Positions 2,016-24,635 of a DNA stretch of 38,122 nt are shown in pieces. A model generated the notes under the pieces. It saw nothing but the letters and a program-made list of their open reading frames with translations. It ran no database searches and had not been told where the DNA came from. Origin of the DNA: a virus; the IMG/VR virus record IMGVR_UViG_3300046451_002161, positions 1-38,122 of that record; one strand, given 5' to 3'. The translations under genes were made by a program, and so were the position numbers. The stretch's first letter is position 1. Each line of letters begins with the position of its first letter.

Positions 2016-2737
2016 GTGAACTTAACCTCCTCTTGAAGGACAGCGTTTTTATTCATTACGATTAGCTCGCATGTCTCTCTTAATCTGAGCAGTAATGCAT
2101 TGCCACGCTCAGGATCATCAAATGCCTTTACAGCATCACTACGCTTGACCTGAGTGGTGCAAAGTAAAGGTAATTGCCTAGACATCCTTGCCTCGATGAT
2201 TTCAAACAATCCGGCTTGAGTGGTTGGACTCATTTTCTCGGAAAACAAATCATCAATTGCTAGGATTGGAACGCTTACAATTTCATCTCTCCAAGACTTA
2301 AAAAATGGACTCCGCTTGGCATCAATTAATTGGGTATGAAAGTCACCTGAGAAAAACACCTTAAATCTTCTGCCTTGCGAATGAAGTTCTTTGAGTAACA
2401 TGCAAAGCGACCTTGTCTTTCCCTGCCTCGATGCACCCATGATGTACAAACCTTTTTTGCGTAATGGAGACCATTTCATTATTTCCGGTAACATCTGCTG
2501 TGCGGAGATTGGCAATTGTGAGATTGATGATTCTCGGTATCCCATTGGGATCAAATTCTCAATTGGTTCAATGGCATGATCGACTCTCGGTAATGCCCTT
2601 TCATCTGCCTGAGCTTTCTGATGAATGGCAACACATGGATCACATACTGCTACATCGTAATTACCTCCAAATAATGGAGCATTGATAAGTTCCTCAGTCC
2701 ATCCTGATTCCTTTCCGCATTCTCTACATGGTATCAT
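2012..2737 (-). CDS. DnaC/IstB-like helicase loader ATPase
   Basis: An AAA+ ATPase of the DnaC-like type that should help load the replicative helicase at the phage origin. From ATG 2737 (241 residues) an N-terminal zinc motif has Cys 4, 7, 32 and 35; Walker A is GASRQGKT at 101-108; Walker B is ILAIDD at 158-163; a sensor-like CTTQ is near 193 and an arginine-finger-like RLRE near 218. The start was chosen because GGAGGA precedes it and it follows the upstream TAA in a TAATATG junction; the longer frame from 2881 only overlaps the previous gene. No replicative helicase is seen here, so a host helicase may be recruited. Confidence 0.85.
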   Translation of the reverse strand: MIPCRECGKESGWTEELINAPLFGGNYDVAVCDPCVAIHQKAQADERALPRVDHAIEPIENLIPMGYRESSISQLPISAQQMLPEIMKWSPLRKKGLYIMGASRQGKTRSLCMLLKELHSQGRRFKVFFSGDFHTQLIDAKRSPFFKSWRDEIVSVPILAIDDLFSEKMSPTTQAGLFEIIEARMSRQLPLLCTTQVKRSDAVKAFDDPERGNALLLRLRETCELIVMNKNAVLQEEVKFT

Positions 2738-2738
2738 A

Positions 2739-3389: not shown

Positions 3390-3801
3390 CTTCTTCTTCT
3401 TCTACGAATTCAGATGGATCAGATTGAAAGTTCACAGATGTGTCCTTACCATTTCCATCATCCACCACAGATGCTGTTTCAGTTGTTGCCGGAAGATACT
3501 TAAATATCTTCTTGTATCCGGCTTTATCAATCCCTGCTTCTACTTCGATTTCCTTCCCAAAGAAAAACTCAAAAGTATGCTTGCCAACCTTGTCCCAAGA
3601 ACTTGATTCAGTACCAAGTGCCTTGAAGAATAAATCCAATTTCCATTGGCAAGATGCCATCAGGAAGAATGAATCATAAAATGTGTTTTCATCCACATTG
3701 TACATAACTGAAATAAACTTATTTCCGTTCTTCGTTAAATTAGGAGTGCCATCCTGTTTTGTGTCATAGCACCCAACTATTTTTGCTGTTTTTTTACTCA
3801 T
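3367..3801 (-). CDS. Single-stranded DNA-binding protein analogue
   Basis: A 144-residue protein from ATG 3801, directly after the exonuclease stop (TAATATG). Residues 1-100 read as a beta-rich domain with repeated aromatic residues (NTFYDSFFLMASCQWKLDLFFKALG), like phage DUF669/OB-type proteins. It ends in a strongly acidic tail finishing DDVPF, nearly the DDDIPF tip with which bacterial SSBs bind partner proteins. It would coat single strands during replication or Erf-mediated annealing. The longer start at 3825 lies inside the upstream gene and is less likely. The exact family is uncertain; the tail is the strong evidence. Confidence 0.75.
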   Translation of the reverse strand: MSKKTAKIVGCYDTKQDGTPNLTKNGNKFISVMYNVDENTFYDSFFLMASCQWKLDLFFKALGTESSSWDKVGKHTFEFFFGKEIEVEAGIDKAGYKKIFKYLPATTETASVVDDGNGKDTSVNFQSDPSEFVEEEEDEDDVPF

Positions 3802-3802
3802 A

Positions 3803-4519
3803 TTAAAATGTGTTATGCTCATCACTCATGTTGCCGAAAACATTTGCGCAACGCTCCCAAAATCTTACAACTAATTCCTTTGAACCATTGGGGTCATCCT
3901 TCTTAGCGAAGTCCAAACAAGTACCGAAATCACCTTCATTAATGTATCCAATTGCTACCGGATCAGAATACTGAGCGTGTAACCCTGCCTTGTCCTTAAT
4001 AGCATCAAAGTGACCCTCTCTAGCGTCATCAATTTTTGCCTGTCTTTTCTCAGCGTCTTTGATGTTACCAAACTTGACTGAACTTTCCTTAAACTCAGGA
4101 ATTACTTTGTGAAGTTCTGCATCCGGTTTTGGTGCTGTCTCGATATCAAAGAATACACAGCGTTCCTCCACATATGCTGAAAGGTAATTATTCATCGACC
4201 TGAAAACATTTCGAGTCTGCATCATATCATTCTCAAGATAGGATTCTTGTTGCTCGCGAGGAAGTTGGTAAAAGAATTTTCCATTACCATTCTTCCCTTC
4301 ATGCCCTGTCCACTTTGATAGGTTATCTAGCGAAACTCTAAACCCCCATTCTGAGGCTCCAAAGAACTCCATAGTATCAACCCATATGGTGGGAAGTTTT
4401 CCGAATTTCTTATTCGCCAAGTGGCTCAGAAAAACAGGGACTTTTACCTGATTCAACATTGACCAACGAATTAAATATGGAACATCGAAGTTCCGGATAT
4501 TATGTCCTACTAAATGCAT
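3803..4519 (-). CDS. DnaQ-family 3'-5' exonuclease with permuted motif order
   Basis: A 238-residue DEDDy-type exonuclease. ExoII is at residues 5-14 (GHNIRNFDVP; N7, D12) and ExoIII at 94-98 (YLEND), while ExoI, normally near the N-terminus, is at 123-130 (FFDIETAP; D125, E127). The C-terminal half (residues 121-238) is what usually precedes ExoII, and the protein starts almost exactly at ExoII. So the gene reads as a circular permutation in one uninterrupted frame. The start is firm: GGGGGA upstream and a TAATG overlap with erf. It probably trims DNA ends for Erf or proofreads. A fusion of two partial genes is the alternative. Confidence 0.8.
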   Translation of the reverse strand: MHLVGHNIRNFDVPYLIRWSMLNQVKVPVFLSHLANKKFGKLPTIWVDTMEFFGASEWGFRVSLDNLSKWTGHEGKNGNGKFFYQLPREQQESYLENDMMQTRNVFRSMNNYLSAYVEERCVFFDIETAPKPDAELHKVIPEFKESSVKFGNIKDAEKRQAKIDDAREGHFDAIKDKAGLHAQYSDPVAIGYINEGDFGTCLDFAKKDDPNGSKELVVRFWERCANVFGNMSDEHNTF

Positions 4520-5205
4520 TATTTATTCCCCCACTTTTTAACTTTATCTTTGATTTCCTGATCAGTAAATTTCAGGAAGGTATTGCAAGCCTTGATCGAA
4601 GAAGTCTCAGGATGAAACCCGATTGCTTCAGCATAACTTTGTGCTTTTAATTCTGCCAATTTTTCTAGGCAAAGCTTTCTCGTTTCTTCACCTGACAATT
4701 CTATATCCGGAATCGGTTCCGATTTTTTAACCGGAGGTTTTGGTTTTGGTTTTGGTTTTGGCTTTTCGGTGGAGTCAACCTCTCCGGCTCCATCTATATC
4801 TTCCTCACTCGCGATGCCAAAATAAGTAGTTAATTGATATCTCCTGAAATAGGTCAGGCTTGCCCCAAGTGATTGCTCAGGACTCATACCTTTTTTCTGA
4901 CTCACCTCAAATGGGAAAAATGAACTAGGTAATCTCTGACCTGATTTATGGAATAGATACAATTCAAGCATGAGTTTTGAATCATCCGTTGGTTGGATCA
5001 TTTGGATATAAGCCAACCCATATTTATTAAGAACTTTTAAGATCGTAACGACCGAAGGAAGTCCTGCGAATTTATATCCGTAGCCTTGTTCCGTTTTCCT
5101 CGGATTAACAAGCTCTGCCTGAGCTTGAGCAAAAGCAGTATAGATTTCCGCAAAAGAAATTTCAGGAGCAGGAATGCTAGGTGTTTTATTGTTTTCATCG
5201 TTCAT
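4519..5205 (-). CDS. erf: ERF-family single-strand annealing protein
   Basis: A 228-residue Erf-type recombinase that would anneal complementary single strands during phage recombination and genome circularisation. Family features are visible: GYGYKFAGLPSVV at 41-53, the SGQRLPSSFFPF strand at 88-99, and the conserved GASLTYFRRYQLTTYFGI at 114-131. A (KP)n linker at 148-158 joins a C-terminal helical part, probably for partner binding. ATG 5205 follows the TAG of the HTH gene with no gap, and the end overlaps the exonuclease gene. With that nuclease and the SSB analogue it forms a recombination cassette. Confidence 0.9.
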   Translation of the reverse strand: MNDENNKTPSIPAPEISFAEIYTAFAQAQAELVNPRKTEQGYGYKFAGLPSVVTILKVLNKYGLAYIQMIQPTDDSKLMLELYLFHKSGQRLPSSFFPFEVSQKKGMSPEQSLGASLTYFRRYQLTTYFGIASEEDIDGAGEVDSTEKPKPKPKPKPPVKKSEPIPDIELSGEETRKLCLEKLAELKAQSYAEAIGFHPETSSIKACNTFLKFTDQEIKDKVKKWGNK

Positions 5206-5385
5206 CTATTTAACTTTCGCAGGGATTTCAAATTTGTTTAAAGCCTCAAGAACTTTTTCAGGTTGGAATCTAATAATCTTACCAACTCGCAAGTATGGTA
5301 TTATTTTTTTCTTTCTGAGGTTTCCTATTGATCTTTCACAGAGTGATAGGAAATCTGCGATTTCTGCTGTAGTATATAATTTCAT
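5206..5385 (-). CDS. HTH_17/MerR-like small DNA-binding protein (excisionase-like)
   Basis: A 59-residue protein in a frame just under the usual cutoff. The sequence YTTAEIADFLSLCERSI then KKKIIPYLRVGKIIRF is the HTH_17 winged-helix pattern used by excisionases and small regulators. ATG 5385 overlaps the nuclease stop as ATGA, and TAG at 5206-5208 directly abuts the erf ATG. It lies about 500 bases downstream of the integrase, so an excisionase role is possible; control of the recombination operon is equally possible. Confidence 0.75.
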   Translation of the reverse strand: MKLYTTAEIADFLSLCERSIGNLRKKKIIPYLRVGKIIRFQPEKVLEALNKFEIPAKVK

Positions 5386-5696
5386 GGTTGTTCTAGTAGT
5401 TGTAGAAAATCTTCAAACTTCATAGTGATCAGATTTTCATGGTTGTTTTTTGTGTGAATTACGCATGGTGGTTTCCCTTTGGAATCCTTGATCGCTTGCG
5501 TAAAAGCTTTATATAAATTCAGTTTTTCGACATGCTTGCATTCGACTGAAAATGGGAAGTCAGGACATGTAATATCTGCATCTCCATTGGCTCCACAAAA
5601 TTGCTGTGAACGATGTGCAGGATATCCATTGTCGGTCAAGATGTGAGCAATCGCCCTTTCATATCTTTGACCTTTTGCTCTAGAATTAATCGGCAT
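5382..5696 (-). CDS. Hjc-like PD-(D/E)XK Holliday junction resolvase/nuclease
   Basis: A 104-residue nuclease. Residues 5-15 (SRAKGQRYERA, with E13), the GDADI segment at 38-42 and VECK at 51-54 give the E-D-ExK active-site layout of Hjc-type resolvases. The small size fits a junction-resolving or DNA-debranching enzyme acting before packaging. The start at 5696 is chosen because GGAGGAACAGCAAG directly precedes it; the longer frame to 5732 overlaps the previous gene. It ends in an ATGA overlap with the HTH gene and belongs to the recombination operon. Exact substrate not known. Confidence 0.75.
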   Translation of the reverse strand: MPINSRAKGQRYERAIAHILTDNGYPAHRSQQFCGANGDADITCPDFPFSVECKHVEKLNLYKAFTQAIKDSKGKPPCVIHTKNNHENLITMKFEDFLQLLEQP

Positions 5697-5898
5697 CTTG
5701 CTGTTCCTCCAAGACATCTCCGGCACAGACATAAATTGCCTCGATTAAATCAGTAAGCGTTCCCTTAAATTCACCACCTGTGGTAAGTGAAATACCTCCA
5801 TCAGAATATACTGACAAATTTAAATTGTTAACCTGAATTGAACTTTTGGTTAACGAGCAGGGTTGAGCTATTTCTTTGAAGTCATTTTTTATGTACAT
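5686..5898 (-). CDS. Hypothetical protein (70 aa), first gene after integrase
   Basis: A 70-residue protein with beta-rich centre (IQVNNLNLSVYSDGGISLTTGG) and an acidic end. Its ATG has a near-perfect AAGGAGGG Shine-Dalgarno sequence and sits 12 bases after the integrase stop, so it may be strongly translated. It overlaps the resolvase gene by 11 bases. No domain is recognised; it heads the recombination/replication run. Confidence 0.6.
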   Translation of the reverse strand: MYIKNDFKEIAQPCSLTKSSIQVNNLNLSVYSDGGISLTTGGEFKGTLTDLIEAIYVCAGDVLEEQQDAD

Positions 5899-5909
5899 TT
5901 ATTCCCTCC

Positions 5910-7079
5910 TTACACCACTAACTCATTTTTATGAGTTGTTAAATCAGAGTAGTATTTTTCACATACTGCTACTGAATTGCGGAGCGTTTTGCTTGCATGA
6001 AATATTCCATGCGTAGATGCCAATCTCGCTCCTAATATTTTCCTCAATCGATGGCATGATTTAACATCAGTTAAACCAAGATCAGTCTTGAGAAATTTTA
6101 TAAATCTTTTGTGGAGTCTTTCACCTCCGTTAATAATTTTTCCTTCCCTTGATTGGAAGTGCAAAAAGACTTGCTGACTTATGCCAACTTTTTCAACATG
6201 TCCTGTTCCCCTTAACTTCGTACCCTTTGTGGCGAACGGAAGAAAAAGAAAATGTTGACCATTAAATATTTTAAAATTGTCAGAATGAACCTGATAGATT
6301 TCTGACTTCCTGAGACCGCAACCAAATGCCAAAAGGTAAATGTCATAAAACACAGGATCAGATTCTTTTTTACCCTGAAAGAATTCTATTATTCTTTCTA
6401 CCTCAGAATCATCAGTCGAAAATGGTTGGGAGACTACACTCTGTGCAATAAAGGAAACAAAATTACCAAAGTGCTTTGTCTCCCAACCCCTCCGTTTGAA
6501 CAACAAAAGATTTTTGCGACTGAATAAAGATTTTATCTGCCTGAGCTTATGAGGAAGATTGTAAATTTCTTCCCATCTCTCCGGCAAGGTTCTCCCCTCA
6601 TCATCCTCGGTTAAAAGGTAATGAGTGGATTCTTGTAAAGAAATCCCTTCCCTCCCACAAAGATCAATAATGTGACTGACATTTTTTTTCCTAGTATCGA
6701 GATTTCCACCGCACCTGTTATTGCAGTCCAAAATCCATGCAAGTAGAAACTCAAGAGTTATTACATTATTTAACTCTTGTATCTTCTTAGTCACTATCCT
6801 CTTTACATCAGACTCTGTAAGTTCGGTTAAGGAGCAATTCAGTGGAATACGAAACTGCTCCTGTTTATGAATAAACTTTAAGGAGACTTTTTGAGAGGAT
6901 AAGTTGACTACTATATCAACTAATTGGGGCAGAAAATTGATTAGGAACTCAAAATTATATATTTGCGAGCCTGAATTTATCTCTTTTTTCCCTTGCAAGA
7001 AAGTGGAGGCGCGGGTGAGAATCGAACTCACGATAGAGGATTTGCAGTCCACGGGTCGCTCTGTATAAATAGGTCTCAT
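5910..7079 (-). CDS. int: Tyrosine recombinase (phage integrase)
   Basis: A 389-codon frame for a tyrosine site-specific recombinase that integrates the phage at a host tRNA-Cys gene. Catalytic candidates: R257 in FGCGLRKSE, K285 in the beta-hairpin, H343 and R346 in CHRLRK, and Y376/Y377 in CEKYYS; the usual LGH histidine is replaced (LRNS). The first 26 codons are the tRNA-derived attP read in frame, and ATG 7079 is the only methionine codon in the whole frame. The folded protein probably begins near residue 40, so GTG or TTG starts inside or after attP are possible. No good Shine-Dalgarno sequence precedes 7079. Confidence 0.88.
   Translation of the reverse strand: MRPIYTERPVDCKSSIVSSILTRASTFLQGKKEINSGSQIYNFEFLINFLPQLVDIVVNLSSQKVSLKFIHKQEQFRIPLNCSLTELTESDVKRIVTKKIQELNNVITLEFLLAWILDCNNRCGGNLDTRKKNVSHIIDLCGREGISLQESTHYLLTEDDEGRTLPERWEEIYNLPHKLRQIKSLFSRKNLLLFKRRGWETKHFGNFVSFIAQSVVSQPFSTDDSEVERIIEFFQGKKESDPVFYDIYLLAFGCGLRKSEIYQVHSDNFKIFNGQHFLFLPFATKGTKLRGTGHVEKVGISQQVFLHFQSREGKIINGGERLHKRFIKFLKTDLGLTDVKSCHRLRKILGARLASTHGIFHASKTLRNSVAVCEKYYSDLTTHKNELVV
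7004..7063 (-). other. attP core: 3' part of tRNA-Cys(GCA)
   Basis: On the minus strand 7050-7004 reads as the 3' half of a cysteine tRNA: anticodon GCA at 7045-7043 in loop CTGCAAA, a perfect T stem (GTGAG/CTCAC) around TTCGATT, an acceptor strand ending CGCGCC, the tRNA-Cys discriminator T, then CCA. Weaker D-arm-like similarity reaches 7063. No 5' acceptor strand precedes it, so this is not a complete tRNA gene. One mismatch in the anticodon stem suggests identity with the host starts near 7050. Phages that integrate into tRNA genes carry exactly such a 3' fragment. Confidence 0.85.
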
Positions 7080-11373: not shown

Positions 11374-11634
11374 TTATTCCTCATCATTTTCTTCTCCACC
11401 ATTTCCGGACATTGCACCACCAAACATCATCATTGCTTTCGCGTATGCAGGATGAAGGATAGGAATATCATACTCCCTTGAAGTAGATGTTTTCTTCTCC
11501 TTCAAGATTGGTTTCTTTGATTTCTTCGATTGGCTTTCCGTAGGCATCTTGGACGAATCTTGTTCGCCTTGTTTTTTGTTGTTTAGGTAGTCGTTCATTT
11601 TTTTCAGTATATTTGGGTCTGCCCATGAAGTCAT
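11374..11634 (-). CDS. Small protein overlapping the end of the giant gene out of frame
   Basis: An 86-residue frame from ATG 11634 (other starts at 11682 TTG, 11646, 11598). It overlaps the last 167 bases of the 2913-residue gene in the +1 frame. The N-terminal half is Lys/Ser-rich; the end (DIPILHPAYAKAMMMFGGAM then Glu/Asp) looks like real protein, and its terminus carries the Shine-Dalgarno sequence for the next gene. No strong ribosome-binding site precedes any start, so expression may need re-initiation or a frameshift. Function unknown. Confidence 0.5.
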   Translation of the reverse strand: MTSWADPNILKKMNDYLNNKKQGEQDSSKMPTESQSKKSKKPILKEKKTSTSREYDIPILHPAYAKAMMMFGGAMSGNGGEENDEE

Positions 11635-14600
11635 CAACAAAAGCATCTCGGTCTGCCGAAGTCGCAGGGAACTTTCCGGCAATTGCTAATTCACCTAGAA
11701 TATCAAAACTAGAATGACCGACAGCTTCCTTCTTGATCATATTCCAAGTGACCCAATGCATAGCAAATGCTGAGTCGATCCAAGCGTAATCCTGTCGCTT
11801 CTTGCCCACCTGTTTTGCTAGATCAGAAAACATATATTCTAGAGTCCGGTACATAGCATGTTCAACAGGATCATCCAATTGCGATCCGATAGTTTTATAG
11901 TATCCTGATCGATCTTCCGGTACACCTTTGGCATCCACTCGATATGGACTGACTCCGAATTTTACATATTCTTTTTTCTGCTTCTCAGCAAAATCCTTAG
12001 CACTCTTCGATGCTTCCGGATCAGCGAGAATTTCATTTACTTTTTGCAGTCTGTTTTGCACAGCACCTTGAATCTGATGCTCCCATACATTTACAAATTG
12101 CCATCTGTCCATGATAACCACATTTGGGTCTGCCATTAAAGCAATAACAAATGATGTAACCTTGTCTTTCACTCCGGCTCCAAGGAAACCATTAGACCAC
12201 ATCTTCTCGCGGATTTGCTGACCATTTAAACTCTTATCATTAAAGATGCCTGTGAGTTCTTTCCATCTGCCATTCCATTTCACAAGCATGTCATGGATTG
12301 CCTGAATATTTTGCTTGGCATTATTTCCTGCTGAGACCGGACTCTTCTGATCGTTGAACATGTTGGCAACAATGTCGGTAAATGTATCCGGTTGATCGTA
12401 GATATTTCTTCGTTCAGCTTCAGAAGCGAAGGCAACCCTTTCCTTTTTAGGTAACTTTTTAATTCTAGATTCGATATAAGCTTTCTTTTGTTTGCCAATT
12501 GCTGTGATTTTTTCCTTAGCCTTATCAACCCTTTTCTTTTCTTTTTTCTTTAACTGATTTACAATTCTAGTTCTTAACTTATTAAGCTTTGCCTTTGGCA
12601 CTTCCAATTTTAAAGCTTCGATATATAAACTACTAGATTCTGCAACTGATCTGAAATCAATTTTAGGTTCAATATCTAATTGCATCTCTGCAATTTTTAC
12701 ATCGAAATCCTTGTACCCTTTTTGAGTCCTCCAACCATCACCATATTTCTCATCTGCGATTGAGGACATATCGTAAAATGTACCTTTCTCCATTTCATAA
12801 TTTCCATCAATCGATTGGAAAATCGCATTCCACATAGGCTTATAATTTGTTGTCCTAAGCCACCCTGCTTCCTGATTATAGGGATCAAGCATCCGGCTCA
12901 GTAAACCCCATATAAAACTCTGTGCGATCATCTCCGGTGGCTTGACTATCTTGTGCAATGCTGTGGCACTCTGATAACCCTCCTTAGCTAACTCAATGAA
13001 CTCAGGGTTGGTTGCCATCGTGCTGTCCAACCAATCCACTAACTGATCAATGTTATTTACATAATCTAAGAATTTTGTAGGTGGAGCAGGTATTTCAAAA
13101 CTACTGACAGAATTTAATCTGAGTTGATGAATCTTCTCCCAATTTTCAGGAGTCGCATAACGCTTGCCTAACTTTTTCATCATGGCATCCGCGAGTGCAT
13201 TGTCTGCAAAGTATTGATCCCAATGTGACTGAGTCCAATTCTTAGAATTTTTTGTTAAACCAATCTCAGTTTTTTCATTATCGTAACTGAGCATTGGGAA
13301 ATTCATTTTCGTGTCCTTTGACATTACCTCGCTTGGAACGCTTGGCATAAAGTTCAAAGAATTGATCATGGAATTTCTTACTTCATCTGATATCTGTCCA
13401 CTATCAGATTCAATGCTCTCGTGGCGAACGATTCCCTTGTTTCTCCATCTCGCATTTGCAAAGGCAAGAGCATTTTCAGGTGCTTGTCCTCGGACTTCCT
13501 CGGTGCTGATTGGGAAATTTTCAGGTACTGAGAGTTCCCCATCTTTTCTTGTTTTAATTTCGGTTTGCGTTTCGATATCATAGATTGAATCTTGGTCACC
13601 CCATATTGCCATTCGCACAGCATCAAGGTAGTTATTAACAGGGAATGCAACATCGAGCATAAAGCCTCGTTGATCGCTTAACCATCCCCCTAAGTGAGCG
13701 CCATCTTTTTTGAAACGATGGGCATGAGTTTTGATATAATTCCATAATGCAGTCCGGTTCATTTCTTGACTCGGAATAATAAACTCAGTTTCTTTTTCCG
13801 GAGCTACAACATATCCGGTTTTAGCATGAATAAGATTGCTCTGATCAATTGTAAAACCATAGGGATTTTTCCGCATGTCAACAATCAGGTCATCGAAATG
13901 TTGGGCGGTATCATCAGTCAACATAGTGTATGGCATCGCGAGAATTGAACCCTCATTAGAGAATGTAAATTCCTGTCTCTTTAAGTCACCCTCGTCTCCC
14001 CAAATTTTAGCCTGTGCGTTAGCGTCAACAACCGCATAAGTTCGACCCCCATACTCCTCATGCATTCTAAATAAATCAAATCCATGTTTCTTATGTAAAT
14101 ATGTATTGATTGAATTATCTGTCGTTTTTGATGGGTCACTAATATTTGTTTCTATGCTCGAAGGACTTTCAAATAAATTCCAATTTACTCCACTTTCGTG
14201 GTATCCTTGCATCACGATTTCTTCCATTGCTTTTGGTGGAAGATTTGCAAGTGCATCAGACTCCTCTCTACGACTTTCAATAAATGCCTTGTTTATTTTT
14301 TCAGTAAAACTTTTATCAGTAATACTTTCCAAAAACCTTCCTTCAGGAGTATCTAATCTTCCTGTTCCATCGTTCAAAACTTTATCACCTTCAAATAATT
14401 TCGTGAGGTAAGAAACTAGATTGGGTAATCTTGTTTTTTTGTATCTAGAACTAGGAGAATGATTTCTCCACTTCCAAATTATTGAGTCAATAACATCAGG
14501 CAAATTTACTCCATTAAAAGAAGTTCCAATATATTGTTGCCTATCTTCAAGTGGCATATCTCTCCACCACTCACTAATTAAATTTTGATGCATGGGATTA

Positions 14601-17600
14601 TCTGTATCCCACATTTTCTTACCCTTGATAACAAAAGTTGATTCATTATTTTTAGGAGACATATTAGAACCTCGCCCAACCCTTTCCTGCCTGTCGGTAA
14701 AGAACGCTTGGATCGAACCATATCGATGTGTCTGATCTCCGATTTCTTCATTGAAATTTCCACGCTCTGTCATTCTTTCAGAATGCCCATGTATTAAAAC
14801 GATTGGTTCAGCAGAATCTTTTTGTGTCAATAATCCACCCTGATGCCACTCTTTAAAATATTTACTATTGTAACCTTTCTCTTGAAATTCTTTGTCAGCA
14901 TCCATTAGAAGATCGATGTCCGCTCGGCTCATTTTGGTCACATCCATATCAAGCTTGCCATCTTTTACTCCGGCGCTCCACGAAGGTTCCGGCATGAAAT
15001 GTATTTGGCTTGCTTGCTCTCTTTTAAAATCACGCAAATGATAAGCATCAAAAACGACAAACTCAGATGAGTGATCAATATAGGAACCATACATATTGGT
15101 GGGTGATTCCTGTCCATGAATTCCGGCTAAACCAAGGATATGATTTACTACAAGAAATGGCTCGCTGTTCTTTTTAAAATCAAATGATTTATCTAGATGA
15201 ATTGTTTTTTGTTTTTCGGGATTATATATATTAACTAATCCGTGATATAAAGTAATAGCATTATTTTCATTCCACTCCGGAAGGATATTAATTGACTCAA
15301 TCTCTTTACCATTGAATGGGTCAATGAAATTTGTTTTATTCTTAGTGTAAAACCGATTCCAAACTTGAGCTAAACTTTGCTCCTGCCCTTTTATTCTTGA
15401 ATCAAATAATTTATCTAACTTATTAATTATATCCGGATGCTGTGTGTTTATAGAATTGTGACTTTTAAGAAATTCATTATCAGGGAGTTTCTCAAAACTA
15501 TAAATATTCTCTCCATAATTTTCTGTATCAGATGGTTCCACATGACCATAATACCCTAAACCTAAGAACCCTGAATTGCCTGTCGTTTGCCCAACTTTTT
15601 TTAAATCAGGATACTGATACTCAGAAGCAGAACCATGATAAATTCGTTCTCCAAATTTTCTTTTCCCATTCTTACCCAAAAGGTTTTTAGGAGGTAATGG
15701 AATAGTGTAAGTGATTCCATTTTCTTGAAAGGTTGGTAACTCAGGTAGGAAAAATAACGAGTCATCCAATTTTCTTCTTTGGTAAGTTTCGTTATTTGTT
15801 TTTAAATTATGCGCGCCCCTACGGATGGCAAAAGACGAATTTTCCTCAACTGCTCTTTTAATAGTATTAGTAATTATCGCCCTTTTAAAAGTTGTCTCAC
15901 CCACTCCCTCCTCCAACCCACCATAATTGAGTAAGTATTTAACTAACCCAAAACGCTTTTCACCCTCAACCTTCCTCATAAGCGGATGAATTAAATGATC
16001 ATTCTGTGGGTCACTATACCACTTAATTGTCTCATCCCTTGTTGCTTTTGCTTTAGGAAAAATTTGATATTCTTTCCTTACATCACTTTTAGGACGATGA
16101 TCAATTGCCATGAAATTTCCGGTATCAAAATCATATCGAAATGCATCGAGTAGATTGAAATAAACCGACTCACCTTCCCCATCTACCTTCCCTGCAGGAT
16201 TTAAATCTTCTAGATCGAATACCAAATCAGGTGAAATAGAAGAACTATGGACTTCTTGAATTTTCATGCGCACCTCATCTCTTTCTCGCAAGGCAAATGC
16301 TGTGATGAGCCGGACATATGAATCTGAATTAATATCGTTAGTTAATATTTGATCGTCATCATAATATTGATTGAATGAATAATTGCTTAATTCATTCGCA
16401 CCATACGCACCATCACCTTTTTTTTTGTGAAAAGTTATGTGGTTTTTATTTTTACTTTTTAAGAGTTGGGATAATCGCGCTGATGCAGTTCTCAAATCAT
16501 TTACGCTTGATAAATCCATGTGAACTATTGGTATACCTACCTTATCTGAAAAATCATACAACGCTTGATAGATTTTCTTGCCGGAAAAAACACTTGTGTT
16601 ATCCAACTTCCCCATTCCCATTTTGCCTAGATTTGAAGTGTCAAGCCTAATTATGAATGGTGGTTGGGGGAGGGTGATTTTAGCGTCTTGGTAAACTTGT
16701 TTCATTATGTTTACACTAAAACTTGCAGTACCCTTGTTGCCAAGTATGTGTTGGTTTTCAGTATTATCATCCTTTATTTTGTATCGTACTCCATATGCTT
16801 CATCATCATCTTCTTTCCATAAAAGCTCAGGTGTTACCGAAATTCCACTATAATCGGATAAAACATTTTCAAGTTCCAATCCCAAATTGTCTAATTGTTG
16901 TTTTCGAGTTTGGGTTCCGCTTTCGTTGTCTTGTAAAGATTTAAAGTCAAGTTTTTGATTAGCAAAAATATCTTCATTACCCTTAGTCGCTCCAATTAAA
17001 AACGACCCTATGCGATCAACCTGATCTCTTTGATTTTCATGTGGGTTTAATGCCCACTCAATTAACGACTCATTTAAACTCTCACCCTCTATATTAAAAT
17101 CAGACTCAGGGTCTTGAAGTATGGTCTCTATTTCCTTATTCGTGTACTGATCAAAAGCAGATGGCAGAGCAATAAAACCATCGGTCTGTCTTTGGGTAAC
17201 ATACTTTTTCTTTTTAGGAGGTATAGTAGACTGATTACTACCATCACCACTCAACATTGGCATGTAGTTAAATTTTGCATTTTTGTAATCGTAGGCATAC
17301 CCATCCCTGTTTTGTGAACTAAGTCCTGCGAGTGCTGAAATATCGTAGGACTTGAATGCGTTCTTCATTTTATTTCTTTCGGGATCGGAGAACCATTCAT
17401 TTCGTGCAGGATCAATAATTCGCTCACCTGATTCTTTCATCCCCATAGCCATGGTAAACAATTCATTCTCTCCATGACCTAGCGGATTGATCCTTCCCTC
17501 ATCACCAACTTCAGTTAAAACATTTTGAGCATGTTGTGCAAAAGCTTGCTTGAAATCACTTACACTTTGACCATCGGGAAGCAATCCTGCATGTGCCATA

Positions 17601-20209
17601 ATTTCAATATTACTCTCAACCACATCAGCATCATATGCCATGACTTTTAGGTTTGGGTAGATAGTTCTACCAAGTCTATTGTAAGGCTTTTTAGGACTGA
17701 TCTGCCAAGCGTATGGAGTAACACTCCGCTCAAAGAACGCGTTGTAATCTGACTTCTTTAAGAATGAAGCTGATCTGTATCCGAACTTTAACATTTTTCT
17801 GCCATCAATCGCGGACTGAAGCATGTCAATGATTGAGGTTACAGAATTATTATACTTTCCTGACATTCCAAAAACTTGCCTAGTTTTCCAATGCAAATTT
17901 TTACCTTCATTGCCTTTACCAATACCGGTAAACGAACTTGGATTTTCTCCCTCATTACGAAGTTTATCAGCTTCCAACAATTGATTATATTGCTCCGTAT
18001 CTTTTACATGAAAATGTGAAGCGACAGCAAGATTTACTCCGACTCCACCGAAAAGCTGAGTGAACCTTTCGTCAGATTTTTGACCTTCTTCGGGACTATG
18101 CTTTCTACCTTTCTCAATTGCGTCTGAGCGTTCACCTAAATGCTTTGCTTTTTCCTTAACATAATTATCAAAAACTTTTTTGACATTATCATTTTTAAGC
18201 ATTGCTTTCGAGATTACTGAACTTACACCCTTGCCTGATTTTGGCTCAAGAACTCCCATTTTTGTAAGTGCTGTTTTCATGGCACTAAATAGAGAATGCC
18301 GAATACTTTTATTCATTCCCTCAAATGCATTTGGATTTTCCTGAGTGGCAATGCTCCATTGCTCTGCACCAATCTCCTCAGATAATAATCCGGCATCTCC
18401 ATCACCATTATATTCTATGTCCACAAGATTTCCTTGCGCATCTAATTTTCCGGTGAAACCTAAAGCATGTGCAACATCAGGCAAGCTTGGTAAAATCTTA
18501 GTTGCATAATCCTTAGCGAATTGAAATGCCTCATCGTTCACTTTTATGCTACCAATACTTTTACCATTCTCATCCTTATAGGAAAACTCAGTTCCACCCT
18601 CGTCTGAAAATCCTTCAAGTATTGCTCTGCGAGTCATCGGTGCTGAACCTAAAAGTTCACGCATAGCATGATGCCCATGCTCGTGTAAGAAAATATTTGA
18701 GGCAATTTGAGTGCCTTCCTTTATCTGATCTTTATTAATGTAAATTGTCCGCGACTTTTGATCATACATTGCCGGAGGCACTCTTCCCACTTTTACCTTT
18801 GGAACTTCAATGTCCACTGATCGGGATTTATTAATGGCATCAACAATCAAATCTTGACTCGCTAACATCATTCTAAAATTTCCAAGTTCCGCAGTTTCAT
18901 CAAGTGTAGAAAGAGCAATTAATGAATCATCCTCTAAGCCTTTAATAGCTTTGATGGTCTCCTGATCACCAAGTCGTTGCTTTTTTACTATGTAATTATC
19001 AATTCCCTGCAATGAGCGATCTGACATTGAACCATCGGGATTATAATCTGCCTTCGATTTCCCTGATCCTCGTTGTCCTGCTAAACCAACAGGTGAACCA
19101 AAACCAATACCCATACCTGTGGCATAACCAACATCTTCTGCGGACTTACCTTTCAGTCCTTCCATCCCGATCTGCATTGCCCCTGCTCCCAACCCTGCAA
19201 CAAAAGAATCAAATGCAATGTCATACAATTGCGTACCTTTCATTTTATACAAAGCACTTGCCGATTTCCTAGTTGCCTTACTCACCTTATCGCTCGTTGC
19301 TAGACGATGAAGGAATCTAGAATGTGATGATGGTTGAGAAAATATTTTTGCTATCGTACCAAATTCTTGTGCTGTCTTTCCGGCAATTTTTGTCAGCACC
19401 TCTCCGGCATACGATGTAGCAATTGCTCCGGCAATTGGAGCGACAATCGGAGTAGTCACCCCACCTAAAGTTCCGGCAATTGATGCACCCTGAAGAACAG
19501 AATATCCACCACCCACTTTTGCTTTTTCAGATAATTTTTTTGGTAGTCCTAGTGCGTCACTTATTTTTACCAATCCATTCCCAACTCCGTCTAATGCATA
19601 GCCTGTTGCTCCAACCCCACCCTTGGCTAAACCCCTTACAGCTTTTGATCCACCCTTGAGTGCAAAAGCGGATGGTAGTACATTTGTCGCGTCTGTGACA
19701 TCGGCTAAAAATGAAAGCTTTTTTTGAAACTTATTAGTCGTTGCTTTTATAAAAGCCTCGCGAGCGACTTGATTGTAATCAAGTTCCTTCTTATGTCTCT
19801 CCCAACCTCGCTCTGCTCTTTCTTCTAATGATAAATCATTATTAAAATGATCCTTGATGTTTCCGATTATCGCTTTGAACGAATTAAATGTATCTCTCGC
19901 CCCAAGCTCAGGTGACCTTAGTAAAGTTCTCCACGCTTCTGATGCCTCACCCTCTTCTTCCCCAAACCCAAGCATAGATGAGATCAAACTTCCTTCATTC
20001 CATGCTTCTGATGCCTCCTCCGCAAATCCTTCAAGACCTTCAGGTACATGTTTAGTGAATGCCCAAATCGCCTCACCATTACCTCGTTTTTCTCTCCGCA
20101 TCCAATCCTGAATGAAAAACTCTTTTTGTTTATCTTCAGGAATTATAGTATCAATTCCATAATTGATTCCTGCCTCTTCCTGCTCTTCGTCTGCGTAAAT
20201 AATTGCCAT
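11468..20209 (-). CDS. Giant polyvalent internal virion protein (2913 aa)
   Basis: A 2913-residue multi-domain protein, nearly a quarter of the window. Visible parts: hydrophobic Gly/Ala-rich segments near 190-280; a zinc-metalloprotease motif HEHGHH at 509-514 with EEIGAE (611-616) as candidate third ligand; a WYL-like stretch beginning near 800 (MLKFGYRS...VTPYAWQISP); an ADP-ribosyltransferase-like region starting YHGSA at 1524 and ending near 1725; a second starting LIHGH at 1806 with a typical end near 2050; a GGWL..RGFMLDV module near 2170; and a C-terminal helical region with GFLGAGVKDKV near 2675. Such proteins travel in the capsid of podoviruses and are injected to act early on the host. 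Domain calls are by eye and need profile searches. Confidence 0.8.
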   Translation of the reverse strand: MAIIYADEEQEEAGINYGIDTIIPEDKQKEFFIQDWMRREKRGNGEAIWAFTKHVPEGLEGFAEEASEAWNEGSLISSMLGFGEEEGEASEAWRTLLRSPELGARDTFNSFKAIIGNIKDHFNNDLSLEERAERGWERHKKELDYNQVAREAFIKATTNKFQKKLSFLADVTDATNVLPSAFALKGGSKAVRGLAKGGVGATGYALDGVGNGLVKISDALGLPKKLSEKAKVGGGYSVLQGASIAGTLGGVTTPIVAPIAGAIATSYAGEVLTKIAGKTAQEFGTIAKIFSQPSSHSRFLHRLATSDKVSKATRKSASALYKMKGTQLYDIAFDSFVAGLGAGAMQIGMEGLKGKSAEDVGYATGMGIGFGSPVGLAGQRGSGKSKADYNPDGSMSDRSLQGIDNYIVKKQRLGDQETIKAIKGLEDDSLIALSTLDETAELGNFRMMLASQDLIVDAINKSRSVDIEVPKVKVGRVPPAMYDQKSRTIYINKDQIKEGTQIASNIFLHEHGHHAMRELLGSAPMTRRAILEGFSDEGGTEFSYKDENGKSIGSIKVNDEAFQFAKDYATKILPSLPDVAHALGFTGKLDAQGNLVDIEYNGDGDAGLLSEEIGAEQWSIATQENPNAFEGMNKSIRHSLFSAMKTALTKMGVLEPKSGKGVSSVISKAMLKNDNVKKVFDNYVKEKAKHLGERSDAIEKGRKHSPEEGQKSDERFTQLFGGVGVNLAVASHFHVKDTEQYNQLLEADKLRNEGENPSSFTGIGKGNEGKNLHWKTRQVFGMSGKYNNSVTSIIDMLQSAIDGRKMLKFGYRSASFLKKSDYNAFFERSVTPYAWQISPKKPYNRLGRTIYPNLKVMAYDADVVESNIEIMAHAGLLPDGQSVSDFKQAFAQHAQNVLTEVGDEGRINPLGHGENELFTMAMGMKESGERIIDPARNEWFSDPERNKMKNAFKSYDISALAGLSSQNRDGYAYDYKNAKFNYMPMLSGDGSNQSTIPPKKKKYVTQRQTDGFIALPSAFDQYTNKEIETILQDPESDFNIEGESLNESLIEWALNPHENQRDQVDRIGSFLIGATKGNEDIFANQKLDFKSLQDNESGTQTRKQQLDNLGLELENVLSDYSGISVTPELLWKEDDDEAYGVRYKIKDDNTENQHILGNKGTASFSVNIMKQVYQDAKITLPQPPFIIRLDTSNLGKMGMGKLDNTSVFSGKKIYQALYDFSDKVGIPIVHMDLSSVNDLRTASARLSQLLKSKNKNHITFHKKKGDGAYGANELSNYSFNQYYDDDQILTNDINSDSYVRLITAFALRERDEVRMKIQEVHSSSISPDLVFDLEDLNPAGKVDGEGESVYFNLLDAFRYDFDTGNFMAIDHRPKSDVRKEYQIFPKAKATRDETIKWYSDPQNDHLIHPLMRKVEGEKRFGLVKYLLNYGGLEEGVGETTFKRAIITNTIKRAVEENSSFAIRRGAHNLKTNNETYQRRKLDDSLFFLPELPTFQENGITYTIPLPPKNLLGKNGKRKFGERIYHGSASEYQYPDLKKVGQTTGNSGFLGLGYYGHVEPSDTENYGENIYSFEKLPDNEFLKSHNSINTQHPDIINKLDKLFDSRIKGQEQSLAQVWNRFYTKNKTNFIDPFNGKEIESINILPEWNENNAITLYHGLVNIYNPEKQKTIHLDKSFDFKKNSEPFLVVNHILGLAGIHGQESPTNMYGSYIDHSSEFVVFDAYHLRDFKREQASQIHFMPEPSWSAGVKDGKLDMDVTKMSRADIDLLMDADKEFQEKGYNSKYFKEWHQGGLLTQKDSAEPIVLIHGHSERMTERGNFNEEIGDQTHRYGSIQAFFTDRQERVGRGSNMSPKNNESTFVIKGKKMWDTDNPMHQNLISEWWRDMPLEDRQQYIGTSFNGVNLPDVIDSIIWKWRNHSPSSRYKKTRLPNLVSYLTKLFEGDKVLNDGTGRLDTPEGRFLESITDKSFTEKINKAFIESRREESDALANLPPKAMEEIVMQGYHESGVNWNLFESPSSIETNISDPSKTTDNSINTYLHKKHGFDLFRMHEEYGGRTYAVVDANAQAKIWGDEGDLKRQEFTFSNEGSILAMPYTMLTDDTAQHFDDLIVDMRKNPYGFTIDQSNLIHAKTGYVVAPEKETEFIIPSQEMNRTALWNYIKTHAHRFKKDGAHLGGWLSDQRGFMLDVAFPVNNYLDAVRMAIWGDQDSIYDIETQTEIKTRKDGELSVPENFPISTEEVRGQAPENALAFANARWRNKGIVRHESIESDSGQISDEVRNSMINSLNFMPSVPSEVMSKDTKMNFPMLSYDNEKTEIGLTKNSKNWTQSHWDQYFADNALADAMMKKLGKRYATPENWEKIHQLRLNSVSSFEIPAPPTKFLDYVNNIDQLVDWLDSTMATNPEFIELAKEGYQSATALHKIVKPPEMIAQSFIWGLLSRMLDPYNQEAGWLRTTNYKPMWNAIFQSIDGNYEMEKGTFYDMSSIADEKYGDGWRTQKGYKDFDVKIAEMQLDIEPKIDFRSVAESSSLYIEALKLEVPKAKLNKLRTRIVNQLKKKEKKRVDKAKEKITAIGKQKKAYIESRIKKLPKKERVAFASEAERRNIYDQPDTFTDIVANMFNDQKSPVSAGNNAKQNIQAIHDMLVKWNGRWKELTGIFNDKSLNGQQIREKMWSNGFLGAGVKDKVTSFVIALMADPNVVIMDRWQFVNVWEHQIQGAVQNRLQKVNEILADPEASKSAKDFAEKQKKEYVKFGVSPYRVDAKGVPEDRSGYYKTIGSQLDDPVEHAMYRTLEYMFSDLAKQVGKKRQDYAWIDSAFAMHWVTWNMIKKEAVGHSSFDILGELAIAGKFPATSADRDAFVDDFMGRPKYTEKNERLPKQQKTRRTRFVQDAYGKPIEEIKETNLEGEENIYFKGV

Positions 20210-20214
20210 GATAT

Positions 20215-22632
20215 TTATCTATATCCGAAATGAAATGGTTCTCTTATGCCATGAAGTTTCGACCCTGTTCTTGGATTATCTTTTTTAAATTTCAATTTTG
20301 CGACCAACGCTTGACTAACTTCTAATTCTTTTCCACTCAAATTACCCTGCTTGGATTTTATTAAATTGATTTGATTGTCAATCTCCTCTTCTCGGAAATT
20401 ACTTATATCATTGAGCATATCCAACCCTCCAATGACCCAACCAACTCCACCCGAAACTAGTCCACCAATTGCAAATGCACCAATCTTCTTTACCATAGTT
20501 TTACCAAGTGCTTTTGTTGCAGATGCCACTCCTTTTTTCTTAACTACATTTTGATCTAGTTGTTGATTAATTACATTTTTTAAAAGTTTGTCACCCTTCA
20601 AACCCTGATTGATTTTTTTCTTTAGTTTTCTATCCCCATCAGGAATCTTATCTATTTTCTGACCTTCGGCATCGGGGAATATATCTGTATTAGCGATTCG
20701 ATTATTTGTAATGTTGCTTTGGATTTGTCCTGCTATTTTTGTTGCTCCATAAAAACTTCCTCCTGCCATCACTCCCTTTACCTGATTTCCGCTTCGCTGA
20801 CTCTCTTCTCTTTCGGCAACATTCTTATTTACTGAGGACATAATGTTCGCCACTTGCCGATCCTGTTCCTCTGCTGTTTTCTTAATTAAACTCTTAGGGT
20901 CTGTAGGTTGATTTGAGCCTGTCATGCCATCCATGATTTCTCCTGCACTTATATCATATTCAGCAGGATCGTATTGTCCTATTGTCAATTCTCCATTTTG
21001 TAATCCTTGTTCTCTAGCTTGATCATAGGCACTACTCATTCTCCTAATTTCTTCAGGAGTTGGATTATCTGTATTCCGTTCAATGAAATCTTGTTTAGAT
21101 TGGTTTTTCTTAACTGCTTTTAATGCGTGATCAAGGTCACGCTTCATTGGGATCGCTTGATTTTTTTGGAGACTATTAAGTCCTCCTTTCAAAAACTCAC
21201 CCATGCCTCCAAGTTGGGTATCGATTTCGTCTAGAGTTAGTCCACCATATCGAGCTTTTACACCCTTAAAAATTCTTGGCACATACTTAGCAGAGTTTTC
21301 CGTAAATTTTTCTTGAAGTACATTCATCACATCTTTCATGAACATCAAATCTTCTGCACTTACATCACCCCCACCAAACACAATTGTCTCTCCGGCTTCG
21401 TACTCTTCCCCTGTCGCAGGGTTTATCATTGGTGAATTACCCTTATAGAATTGTCCACCCTCTCCAACATCTTTGGAGGTTAAAACATAATCACTACCAA
21501 TCCTCTTATCGAACCATCTGTCAACTTCCGCTGAGTAACTCTTATTTCCCTTAATTCGATCAACATCTTGATTTGATAAAACACCTTCACCTTGTGCTAG
21601 TTTTGCCAACTTTATTAATGACACGGATGCACTCACAGGGTTGACAACTTTGGGCATCCATTTCCCATCGTTCTGTTGTAACATCTTTAAGGAAGAATCA
21701 ATGAGCGTTGATGTCTGTCGCAAATCACCCATACTATCCATGGTCTGCTCAAACTCTCCAAAACCAACCAACTCAGCAATCTCTTTTGCTGTTTTCCTAA
21801 TTCCACCATCCGGCACAACTAATGATTCCATTTGCTTGGTAAGTGCATCAATTTGTTCTTGAGGTAAATTTAATTTTAAAATTGTTTTATTGAGTGCAGT
21901 TTGCATTTCAGTATTTGACAGAAAATTTAATTCTGTAAGCTGAGTTCCATCTCTTTCCTCCTTCATCATTCCCTGCTTTAAAGTAGCAAGGAGTGCCGGA
22001 TTATAAACACCAAGACGCATCGCCTTATTTACTTCGTGCATTGCTTGAGTCGCGGAAGCTACATCACCTCCCTGCTCTTTTACACTCTTGATCCATTCTT
22101 GCCCTCGATTTAATGGAGTTAAGTTTTTCTGCTTTGGATCGCTATTAAATTGAAGGTATGAATTTTTTTGTTTTGATAAATTTGTCTGCTCTTTAAGTTG
22201 CTGAGTTTGCAGACCCAAAAATTCAGTTTGTTGTCGGAGTTGATTATTTCGCAACTGATTAGTTTCAAACTCTTGTTTAACTTTCTTAGTTGCGCGATAT
22301 GTAGCTATTGCTTCTTTCGCACCCCCATGTTGCTTTATGAATTTCTGACCTTCTTTATCACGAAACTTTTCATCCTGCTGAATCTGCTGAATATCAAATG
22401 GGGACATTCCTTTTGATAGTGCCATGTCTGCAAACTCATCGGTTTGCATTAATCCATCTGCTATGCTCTTTGCTTCCTCATTTTCAAAATAAGCGGAACC
22501 GATTTGCTTTAGGAGACCCCCTATCATTAAGCCTGTTTGCGCCATGCCTTGACCCTTAGCTCTTCCTGCATCTCCGTAACCGGAAAAGTCTGCCTGTTTT
22601 GTCTGAATGTTTTGAAAGTATGGTGATGCCAT
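20215..22632 (-). CDS. Internal virion / ejection protein (805 aa)
   Basis: An 805-residue protein placed between another structural protein and the giant gene. The N-terminus has a small hydrophobic part (GLMIGGLLKQIGSAYF), followed by Gln-rich coiled-coil-like sequence (LRNNQLRQQTEFLGLQTQQL) and, near the C-terminus, a Gly-rich hydrophobic stretch (IGAFAIGGLVSGGVGWVIGG) suited to membrane insertion. The position and composition match podovirus ejection proteins that form a conduit across the envelope. ATG 22632 has AGGAGA upstream. No enzymatic motif is seen. Confidence 0.65.
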   Translation of the reverse strand: MASPYFQNIQTKQADFSGYGDAGRAKGQGMAQTGLMIGGLLKQIGSAYFENEEAKSIADGLMQTDEFADMALSKGMSPFDIQQIQQDEKFRDKEGQKFIKQHGGAKEAIATYRATKKVKQEFETNQLRNNQLRQQTEFLGLQTQQLKEQTNLSKQKNSYLQFNSDPKQKNLTPLNRGQEWIKSVKEQGGDVASATQAMHEVNKAMRLGVYNPALLATLKQGMMKEERDGTQLTELNFLSNTEMQTALNKTILKLNLPQEQIDALTKQMESLVVPDGGIRKTAKEIAELVGFGEFEQTMDSMGDLRQTSTLIDSSLKMLQQNDGKWMPKVVNPVSASVSLIKLAKLAQGEGVLSNQDVDRIKGNKSYSAEVDRWFDKRIGSDYVLTSKDVGEGGQFYKGNSPMINPATGEEYEAGETIVFGGGDVSAEDLMFMKDVMNVLQEKFTENSAKYVPRIFKGVKARYGGLTLDEIDTQLGGMGEFLKGGLNSLQKNQAIPMKRDLDHALKAVKKNQSKQDFIERNTDNPTPEEIRRMSSAYDQAREQGLQNGELTIGQYDPAEYDISAGEIMDGMTGSNQPTDPKSLIKKTAEEQDRQVANIMSSVNKNVAEREESQRSGNQVKGVMAGGSFYGATKIAGQIQSNITNNRIANTDIFPDAEGQKIDKIPDGDRKLKKKINQGLKGDKLLKNVINQQLDQNVVKKKGVASATKALGKTMVKKIGAFAIGGLVSGGVGWVIGGLDMLNDISNFREEEIDNQINLIKSKQGNLSGKELEVSQALVAKLKFKKDNPRTGSKLHGIREPFHFGYR

Positions 22633-22655: not shown

Positions 22656-24635
22656 TTAATATTGAGGGCGATCATTACGATTGGATGCCCACCCTGAGAC
22701 AAGACCACTAACACCACCCCCAATAATATTTCCAAACATCTGATTGATTCCCGATTTTTCTTCTGCTTTTGCTCGTGCCATTTGAGCATTATAAGAATTT
22801 AATTCTGATGCTTGATTTGCTTTAAATTCAGCACCTTGCGATGGGTTATATATTTGTGGTGACGCATTAACTCCGGCATACGCATTTCCGTAGGTTGATT
22901 GCCCTGCCTCATTTGAAACTCCTGAAGGTCTGCCAAGAATTGCCTGAAATGGATCAGCGGATGTTGCCTGTTCAACACCTACTCGCTGAACTGCGTATCC
23001 TCGGTCTTGAGCCAATCCGGTTTGATATGATTGATCGTTAATTTGCTTATTAGAGATAGATCGATCCATCAATCCCATCTGTGTATTCATAACTTGTCCG
23101 GCAAAATTTTGTCGATCTGTTTGCCTTGCTCTTGAAGCTTGCTCATTAAAATTTAATTCTGCAAGTACACCCGAAAAGTCTCTTCCGCGACCTCGTGCTG
23201 AAGTTGCCATCCGCGCACCCTGTGATGCAGTTCGCATTTCTCTTGATGTTAACCTACCCCCTGCTTGCATACCCTCTTGAGCCTGTGCAAGCATTTGTTG
23301 ATTTAGACCTCTTGAGCTTGGTTGATTTGATTTAGAGGAGTTTACACCCTGCTCCGGCATTCGCTCGTTTAAAGCTGAAGTATCACCATAACCCCCTGCC
23401 GGTTGCTCAAATTTTTTTGATTGAGAATTTCGTCCTTCTAATTTTTCTCTTAATATTTTTGTTTTTTTCTTAAACTCGGCTAACTCCCTCATGTCCTTTG
23501 GATCACCAAGCGCTCCTGAGCTATTTATTCGACCAATAATTTCCTTCTCCTCTTTAGCAGTTTGAGCCTCAAATTCTTCTAATTCTAGATCGTAAGCTTC
23601 TTGAGCTTTACCCTGATCAAAATTATCCAAGTTCTGCTGATTCTGTGCAAACATAGTTGGTTGCGGATCATCAACTAAACTAAATATATCATTGCTTTGA
23701 TTTTGTGGAATGGCAGACATTGAGCCTAGACGCTCAGTCTCATCGAGTGCGTCCTGAATGCCACCTTGTTGTCTATAAAGATCGGTTGCTTCCTGCCCAT
23801 ACTCACCGACCAATCCTAATTCATTATTGATCGTGCTTCGTTGCTCGCGCTGTCTTAAATCTTGTTCAAACTTCTGAGTACCTTGAAATTCTCCGGCTTT
23901 ACTATATCCGGCTTGCCGATTTTCAGACAAACCATCTTCGTTGTAAAACTTCGATGATTGTTCACCTCCAATTGTCTGTAATAATCCACCACTACGATGT
24001 AAAGACCCTGCTTTATCCTTTCCAACAAACTCCTTATAAGTATTACTCTCAGGGTCACCCTCAATCATTACATCTTCCCTAGAATAGTAAGGCGCATCAT
24101 CTCCGTATCCGCTTTTGATGGATTTAAACTCAGACATCAATTTTGTTGTCTCTGCGCCATCGGTATTTTGCGCTATGTATTGCGCTAATCTATTTGTAGG
24201 TGATGCACCATCAGTTCCATTCCACCCTGTGCCTTGCTGATTACCCCACTCACCATGGCGCATCCAATCGTAATGATCGCCCTCAATCCACCCTCCGGTT
24301 GCTTCAGACAATCCATTTTTTACTATATCATATGCTCTAGTACCTAACTTTCTTGCGTAAGCAATTGCAACAGCATCCTGATCTTTAAATTGCTCCCACT
24401 CTTGTGGATTAAAATCAACTCCCTCTACTGCGACATATCCATCTGAATTAACTTCCTGCGATACTCCATGTAATTGCTGACTAGTAATTTGAGAATCAAG
24501 CCTTGCATAAGCTTTTCTTCCTGACTCAGGGTCTGCCTCTGCTTTGTACAGCATCGGAGCTAAATTAACTTGGGCAATGAGTGCATCTCTCATTGATTCT
24601 TCGTAGTCTAAAATTTCTGCTGATGTCATACTCAT
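22656..24635 (-). CDS. Internal / minor structural protein (659 aa)
   Basis: A 659-residue Gln/Gly/Ser-rich protein. The N-terminus (DYEESMRDALIAQVNLAPML then YARLDSQ) is of a type found near the start of large phage structural proteins. The middle is low-complexity and charged, and the C-terminus ends in a glycine-rich hydrophobic segment (GNIIGGGVSGLVSGWA). Together with the next two genes it probably forms the set of internal proteins injected with the DNA. ATG 24635 follows a weak AGGAAG. Exact family not recognised. Confidence 0.6.
   Translation of the reverse strand: MSMTSAEILDYEESMRDALIAQVNLAPMLYKAEADPESGRKAYARLDSQITSQQLHGVSQEVNSDGYVAVEGVDFNPQEWEQFKDQDAVAIAYARKLGTRAYDIVKNGLSEATGGWIEGDHYDWMRHGEWGNQQGTGWNGTDGASPTNRLAQYIAQNTDGAETTKLMSEFKSIKSGYGDDAPYYSREDVMIEGDPESNTYKEFVGKDKAGSLHRSGGLLQTIGGEQSSKFYNEDGLSENRQAGYSKAGEFQGTQKFEQDLRQREQRSTINNELGLVGEYGQEATDLYRQQGGIQDALDETERLGSMSAIPQNQSNDIFSLVDDPQPTMFAQNQQNLDNFDQGKAQEAYDLELEEFEAQTAKEEKEIIGRINSSGALGDPKDMRELAEFKKKTKILREKLEGRNSQSKKFEQPAGGYGDTSALNERMPEQGVNSSKSNQPSSRGLNQQMLAQAQEGMQAGGRLTSREMRTASQGARMATSARGRGRDFSGVLAELNFNEQASRARQTDRQNFAGQVMNTQMGLMDRSISNKQINDQSYQTGLAQDRGYAVQRVGVEQATSADPFQAILGRPSGVSNEAGQSTYGNAYAGVNASPQIYNPSQGAEFKANQASELNSYNAQMARAKAEEKSGINQMFGNIIGGGVSGLVSGWASNRNDRPQY

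Follow-up and report, generated by a model that had tools for sequence, protein, structure and literature searches.

P0001, a 2913-aa phage protein, combines a fixed core with exchangeable cassettes that lie between short linkers, and the most conserved part of its core is predicted to have the fold of a DNA glycosylase. We think it fairly probable that P0001 is a polyvalent protein that enters the host with the phage genome and acts after ejection, with zincin, WYL-like, and glycosylase domains as its core and linker-bounded cassettes as its variable part. P0001 is encoded by the virus record IMGVR_UViG_3300046451_002161; "the window" is all 38,122 bases of that record.

P0001 and its relatives

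11468..20209, minus strand: P0001, gene for the 2913-aa polyvalent protein (single uninterrupted open reading frame)
13352..13930, minus strand: conserved domain whose fold was not recognised, residues ~2094-2286 (conserved across relatives)

A first-pass annotation of this DNA had reported a 2913-residue reading frame at 11468-20209, and the frame is indeed uninterrupted, on the minus strand. The motif positions quoted with it were correct for HEHGHH (509) and YHGSA (1524); LIHGH is at 1805, not 1806. VVFDAYHL and AVVDANAQAKI, which were quoted without positions, are at 1718 and 2059. Searches of Pfam, the PDB, and phage and plasmid records with the whole of P0001 as the query were unproductive, and it had no match among annotated phage or plasmid records. 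Three IMG/VR contigs encode full-length relatives. Those of L001 and L002 have 2673 amino acids and match P0001 at 87–89% in the best segment; the relative from L003 has 2841 amino acids (47%).

The fixed core of P0001 consists of a Gly/Ala-rich hydrophobic N-terminal part, the zincin, the WYL-like domain, and the C-terminal HhH-GPD domain. Residues ~2094-2286 are also strongly conserved (pattern YGFTIDQSN...GWLSD..FMLDVAFPV), with no Pfam match and no confident model.

Predicted zincin and WYL-like domains

18260..18982, minus strand: zincin-like metallopeptidase domain, residues ~410-650 (alignment, model, and fold match to lethal factor)
18668..18685, minus strand: HEHGHH, residues 509-514, with zinc ligands H509 and H513 and general base E510 (conserved HEXXH)
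18374..18376, minus strand: E612, proposed third zinc ligand (conserved in aligned relatives)
17240..17866, minus strand: WYL-like domain, residues ~782-990 (fold comparison)

Fold and conserved residues support a zincin domain in P0001. In our alignment, HEXXH is found at the same place, with a downstream Glu, in the 11 relatives that cover the region; H509, E510, H513, and E612 are all conserved in the relatives aligned there. Both HEXXH and E612 lie within helices of the AlphaFold model. Confidence in this model is modest (mean pLDDT 54.7, with blocks at ~74–86 between model residues 131 and 220). VIA-align matched it to the catalytic domain of lethal factor (Z 7.6, rmsd 4.7, 159 residues aligned), and Foldseek alone gave a weak match (E 0.12). 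The main text of Iyer et al. 2017 (PMC5512222) links the zincins of polyvalent proteins to lethal factor. The protease motif at 509 that was noticed in the first-pass annotation is thus confirmed, as a zincin of the lethal-factor type, by HEHGHH, the conserved Glu, and the fold match. Its third ligand is not: E616 had been suggested, but the E616 column has Tyr in two relatives (L011 and L014), so we rejected E616 in favor of E612.

Fold comparison also supports a WYL-like domain, which had been suspected near residue 800, although it falls short of proof. Residues ~782-990 gave matches to PafBC (Z 5.0), CapW (4.8), BrxR (4.4), and DriD (4.2); the WYL matches span Z 4.1–5.0 over about 80 residues, with modest model confidence and no Pfam match.

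Exchangeable cassettes between short linkers

17258..17269, minus strand: linker NYMP, residues 981-984 (alignment and motif scan)
15740..15751, minus strand: linker FLPE, residues 1487-1490, left border of ART1
14999..15739, minus strand: ART1 cassette, residues 1491-1737, ART-PolyVal-like, with H1525 (profile homology; absent from L001 and L002, replaced in L003)
14987..14998, minus strand: linker FMPE, residues 1738-1741, right border of ART1
13931..13939, minus strand: weak linker AMP, residues 2091-2093
13343..13351, minus strand: linker FMP, residues 2287-2289

The accessory modules are exchangeable cassettes between linkers of the (F/Y)MP type, and they have been gained, lost, and exchanged exactly. 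In L001 and L002, precisely the ART1 cassette is missing, and the FLPE and FMPE of the window collapse to a single FMPE. In L003, a module that is unrelated to ART1 sits between two FMPE; this replacement (L003:14450-15076) weakly matches phrog_8582 (E 6.4e-4), whose function is unknown. At the DNA level, the window and L002 are 73.7% identical in the N-terminal block, whereas everything from the FMPE that follows ART1 onward is 85.8% identical. At a second cassette site, which is seen in cousins, L009 has one linker and zero modules; with two linkers, the module has 190 amino acids in L011–L013, 264 in L014 (an ART-PolyVal; PF18760, E 1.3e-5), and 469 in L016; and L017 has several modules in series. 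Both sites fit a pattern of n modules and n+1 linkers.

The motif [FY]MP occurs 3 times in the window, against 0.23 expected from shuffling, and the corresponding counts are 5 against 0.25 in L003, 5 against 0.17 in L008, and 3 against 0.12 in L017. The motif scan did not find it in L009 (which has WMP, YLP, and LMP), L019, L025, or L026.

Are the linkers cleaved? Iyer et al. proposed, in the main text of PMC5512222, that the zincins of polyvalent proteins in general carry out autoprocessing. But the linkers might be mere recombination junctions or flexible joints, left uncleaved in a P0001 that works as one chain, and we consider this a strong contender, with a chance only somewhat below even. 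It would agree with phage N4, whose virion RNA polymerase carries a zincin and yet is packaged whole and unprocessed (as described in the main text of PMC5512222), and with L026, which has HEXXH and no (F/Y)MP motif. It fits less well with the retention of the same short peptide at the borders of unrelated modules, which exceeds the needs of a simple joint, or with L019, a single case in which HEXXH and the linker motif are both lacking. Because of L026, and despite L019, we suggest only as a hypothesis that the zincin cleaves P0001 at its linkers.

We also noticed that UOF76779.1 (3146 amino acids; locus L040, MW202426.1), which is a classical polyvalent protein, has modules that end in DIRRS- or DIRKS-like joints. 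These may correspond to the DIRYMP joints in the P0001 family.

One putative ADP-ribosyltransferase

13940..14986, minus strand: second ART-like region, residues ~1742-2090, identity unproven (motif resemblance)

Profile homology identifies ART1 as a genuine relative of the ART-PolyVal family and hence as a putative ADP-ribosyltransferase (ART). ART1 matches phrog_4700 (E 2.4e-5), and a member of phrog_4700, Vi01_183 from a Salmonella phage, belongs to Pfam ART-PolyVal (PF18760) at 9e-11. When compared to a five-sequence ART-PolyVal alignment (HMM-HMM), ART1 scored 85% probability (E 6e-6), versus at most 0.2% for every other module of P0001. Like PF18760 and Vi01_183, ART1 has a YHGS...GxG(F/Y)Y region; unlike them, it is longer and by itself falls below the Pfam cut-off. 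The active-site candidates are H1525, which is aligned, and Tyr 1553/1554; the late acidic residue is ambiguous (E1716 or D1721). With ART1 alone as the query, we found no relatives in IMG/VR. Since two close relatives (L001 and L002) precisely lack ART1, it is accessory and not the core function of P0001.

The first-pass annotation had described two ART-like regions, beginning at 1524 and 1806. The first of these is ART1, and the second resembles an ART by its motifs. We doubt that both regions are active ARTs that form a host-takeover device. The second region does have LIHGH, YGS..FFT, and a late, strand-like AVVD, which resembles the order in ARTs, and its motif His is conserved in L003. 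However, the region has no match in Pfam, PHROG, or the PDB; its HMM-HMM score against ART-PolyVal is like those of unrelated modules; most of its model stays below a pLDDT of 50; and L003 has Asn in place of the Asp of AVVD. We therefore count one ART in P0001. Polyvalent proteins with multiple ARTs are already known, with up to 12 copies (main text of PMC5512222).

When the second ART-like region, the 2094-2286 domain, and the L003 insert were used as queries, only known contigs came up. The giant protein of L017 has three cassettes in a row at ~1630-1960, each with FMP borders: the first is ART-PolyVal-like, and the second has a different ART-like look (VKVFRAIP...EFGYDP).

A predicted DNA-glycosylase fold at the C terminus

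11714..13042, minus strand: HhH-GPD DNA-glycosylase-fold domain, residues ~2390-2832, with an insertion that is absent in most relatives (model and alignment)
12161..12163, minus strand: K2683, equivalent of the catalytic Lys (invariant in 14/14; K129 of MjaOgg)
12107..12109, minus strand: D2701, equivalent of the catalytic Asp (invariant in 14/14; D147 of MjaOgg)

The C-terminal part of P0001 is the most conserved and furthest-reaching of the family (15 IMG/VR loci), and it was overlooked in the first-pass annotation, as was the cassette structure. Its predicted fold and its invariant catalytic residues support an HhH-GPD DNA-glycosylase-fold domain. A GxGxKxK...D pattern in the alignment had raised the suspicion of a helix-hairpin-helix (HhH) glycosylase before folds were compared. 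Model confidence is high in this part (pLDDT of blocks mostly 70–91), and the best match of the model in VIA-align is the Ogg of Methanocaldococcus jannaschii (MjaOgg, PDB 3knt; Z 13.8, rmsd 3.4, 205/205 residues). The first 13 rows are all HhH glycosylases (MjaOgg, OGG1 entries, the Ogg of C. acetobutylicum, MagIII, and MutY), and the first unrelated row after them has Z 6.7. With Foldseek alone, glycosylases were not among the best 50 matches, and sequence methods gave no significant link between the C terminus and glycosylases, so our claim rests on the fold and the residues. None of the annotated phage records matched the C terminus from the window, L009, or L026. In a viral structure library, one other phage protein, A0A6J5RZW6, matches the model (E 1.2e-5).

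In MjaOgg, K129 and D147 are catalytic, and H133 and W198 sandwich the base (PMC5069365). The residues K2683, F2687, D2701, R2702, H2818, W2819, and W2822 of P0001 are invariant in 14/14 relatives. Judging by spacing and the aligned range, from which we inferred the correspondence, K2683 and D2701 would be the catalytic pair (18 residues apart, as in MjaOgg), F2687 would take the place of H133 (four residues after the Lys), and W2822 is where W198 is expected. The domain thus resembles OGG2 enzymes in its whole fold, HhH, Lys-Asp spacing, and base-sandwich positions. It differs in having insertions, in being embedded in a giant protein, in the lack of a significant sequence match, and in its pocket. 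Ogg2 enzymes have a C-terminal Lys that senses 8-oxoG (PMC3397491); the P0001 family has no match for this Lys, and the chain runs on past that place with VGHSS. We therefore rejected membership in OGG2 and do not assign 8-oxoG as the substrate.

We also considered that the domain might only bind DNA, or hold the end of the genome during ejection, with no catalysis. The altered base pocket, with His2818 for Asp194 of MjaOgg and the VGHSS stretch for the C-terminal Lys (matched by spacing), would be consistent with this. But 14/14 diverse sequences share the catalytic Lys, the catalytic Asp, and the two aromatic residues without exception, which would be needless for pure binding, so a non-catalytic role seems improbable to us.

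Gene order suggests a virion protein

20215..22632, minus strand: 805-aa gene, possible partner ejection protein by position only (conserved in L001–L003)
22656..24635, minus strand: 659-aa gene, possible partner ejection protein by position only (relatives in L001–L003, L009, L011, L012, L014, and L017)

P0001 is the last gene of the structural run on its strand. Upstream on the same strand are genes for the major capsid protein (Pfam SU10_MCP, 3.6e-35) and for a match to phrog_578 (head closure), followed by fibre-like genes, the 659-aa gene, the 805-aa gene, and, five bases further on, P0001. Several distant contigs likewise carry relatives of the 659-aa and 649-aa genes, located upstream of their own giant gene. 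Podophages encode large ejected proteins at such a place. From this placement and the gene order, we infer that P0001 is carried in the virion and leaves it together with the genome. An intracellular P0001 that is absent from virions, as a large early or lysogeny protein, is quite unlikely: the window's integrase-like and ERF recombinase genes make lysogeny possible, but just five bases separate P0001 from the 805-aa gene in a run that starts with the capsid gene, and relatives keep this order.

The phage may be temperate: positions 2012-7079 of the window encode integrase-like (E 0.003), ERF recombinase, PDDEXK nuclease, and IstB/DnaA-like genes. At 32380-33966, in the structural region, is a 528-aa protein that contains CBM5/12 carbohydrate-binding stretches (E 2.7e-7). 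The host is probably a marine verrucomicrobial bacterium. The C-terminal domain of P0001 was found in four contigs from metagenome-assembled genomes of Verrucomicrobiota. However, the domain is rare in our sample of Verrucomicrobiota (1 of 288 genomes, and that one is the centre genome itself), so the assignment of the host is weak.

Proposed action of P0001

We propose that P0001 would be packaged in the particle and ejected together with the genome. Parts of the protein would then be released at or near the linkers, by the zincin or by a different protease. The glycosylase would act on DNA at entry, and its simplest role would be to clear the incoming (or host) DNA of bases that are oxidised or altered in some other way. 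The ART would modify a host target by ADP-ribosylation. Cassettes would turn over by recombination in or near the DNA that encodes the linkers. A more specific version, in which an injected base-excision glycosylase/AP lyase is the fixed core of a self-processing giant, deals with oxidised or modified bases at genome entry, and is accompanied by sockets for effector cassettes, is a tentative idea that we would not yet favor.

Relation to known systems and implications

Injected phage proteins that are polyvalent and include zincins and ARTs have been known since 2017 (main text of PMC5512222). P0001 belongs to this class, as the first-pass annotation had claimed, in that it has at least two disparate activities in one chain (ART1, the zincin, and the glycosylase fold); that it is injected is predicted from gene order. 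Like the proteins described in the main text of Iyer et al. 2017, it joins unrelated enzymatic domains in one chain with a zincin as the hub, and it has an ART of the ART-PolyVal type and a phage structural context. Unlike them, it has an HhH-GPD core, linker-bounded cassettes, and no LPD match in Pfam. The N4 virion RNA polymerase, as portrayed in PMC12633501, is also a giant protein that is ejected with two partners (in P0001, partners by position only), but we detected no RNA polymerase module in P0001.

The glycosylase core and the linker-cassette anatomy appear to be new. DNA glycosylases are not mentioned in the main text of PMC5512222, and our literature search found no report of a phage that injects such an enzyme, although one may exist. 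Hosts are reported to use a DNA glycosylase as an anti-phage defence (PMC13160076), which makes the use of glycosylases in phage-host conflict plausible.

If our proposal is correct, then a DNA base-excision enzyme joins the activities that phages may deliver with their genomes. The pattern of n modules and n+1 linkers would be a simple grammar for the gain and loss of effectors in giant injected proteins. The linkers would allow the effector modules of metagenomic phages to be located by position, and they would be concrete sites for the self-processing that has been proposed for the zincins of polyvalent proteins.
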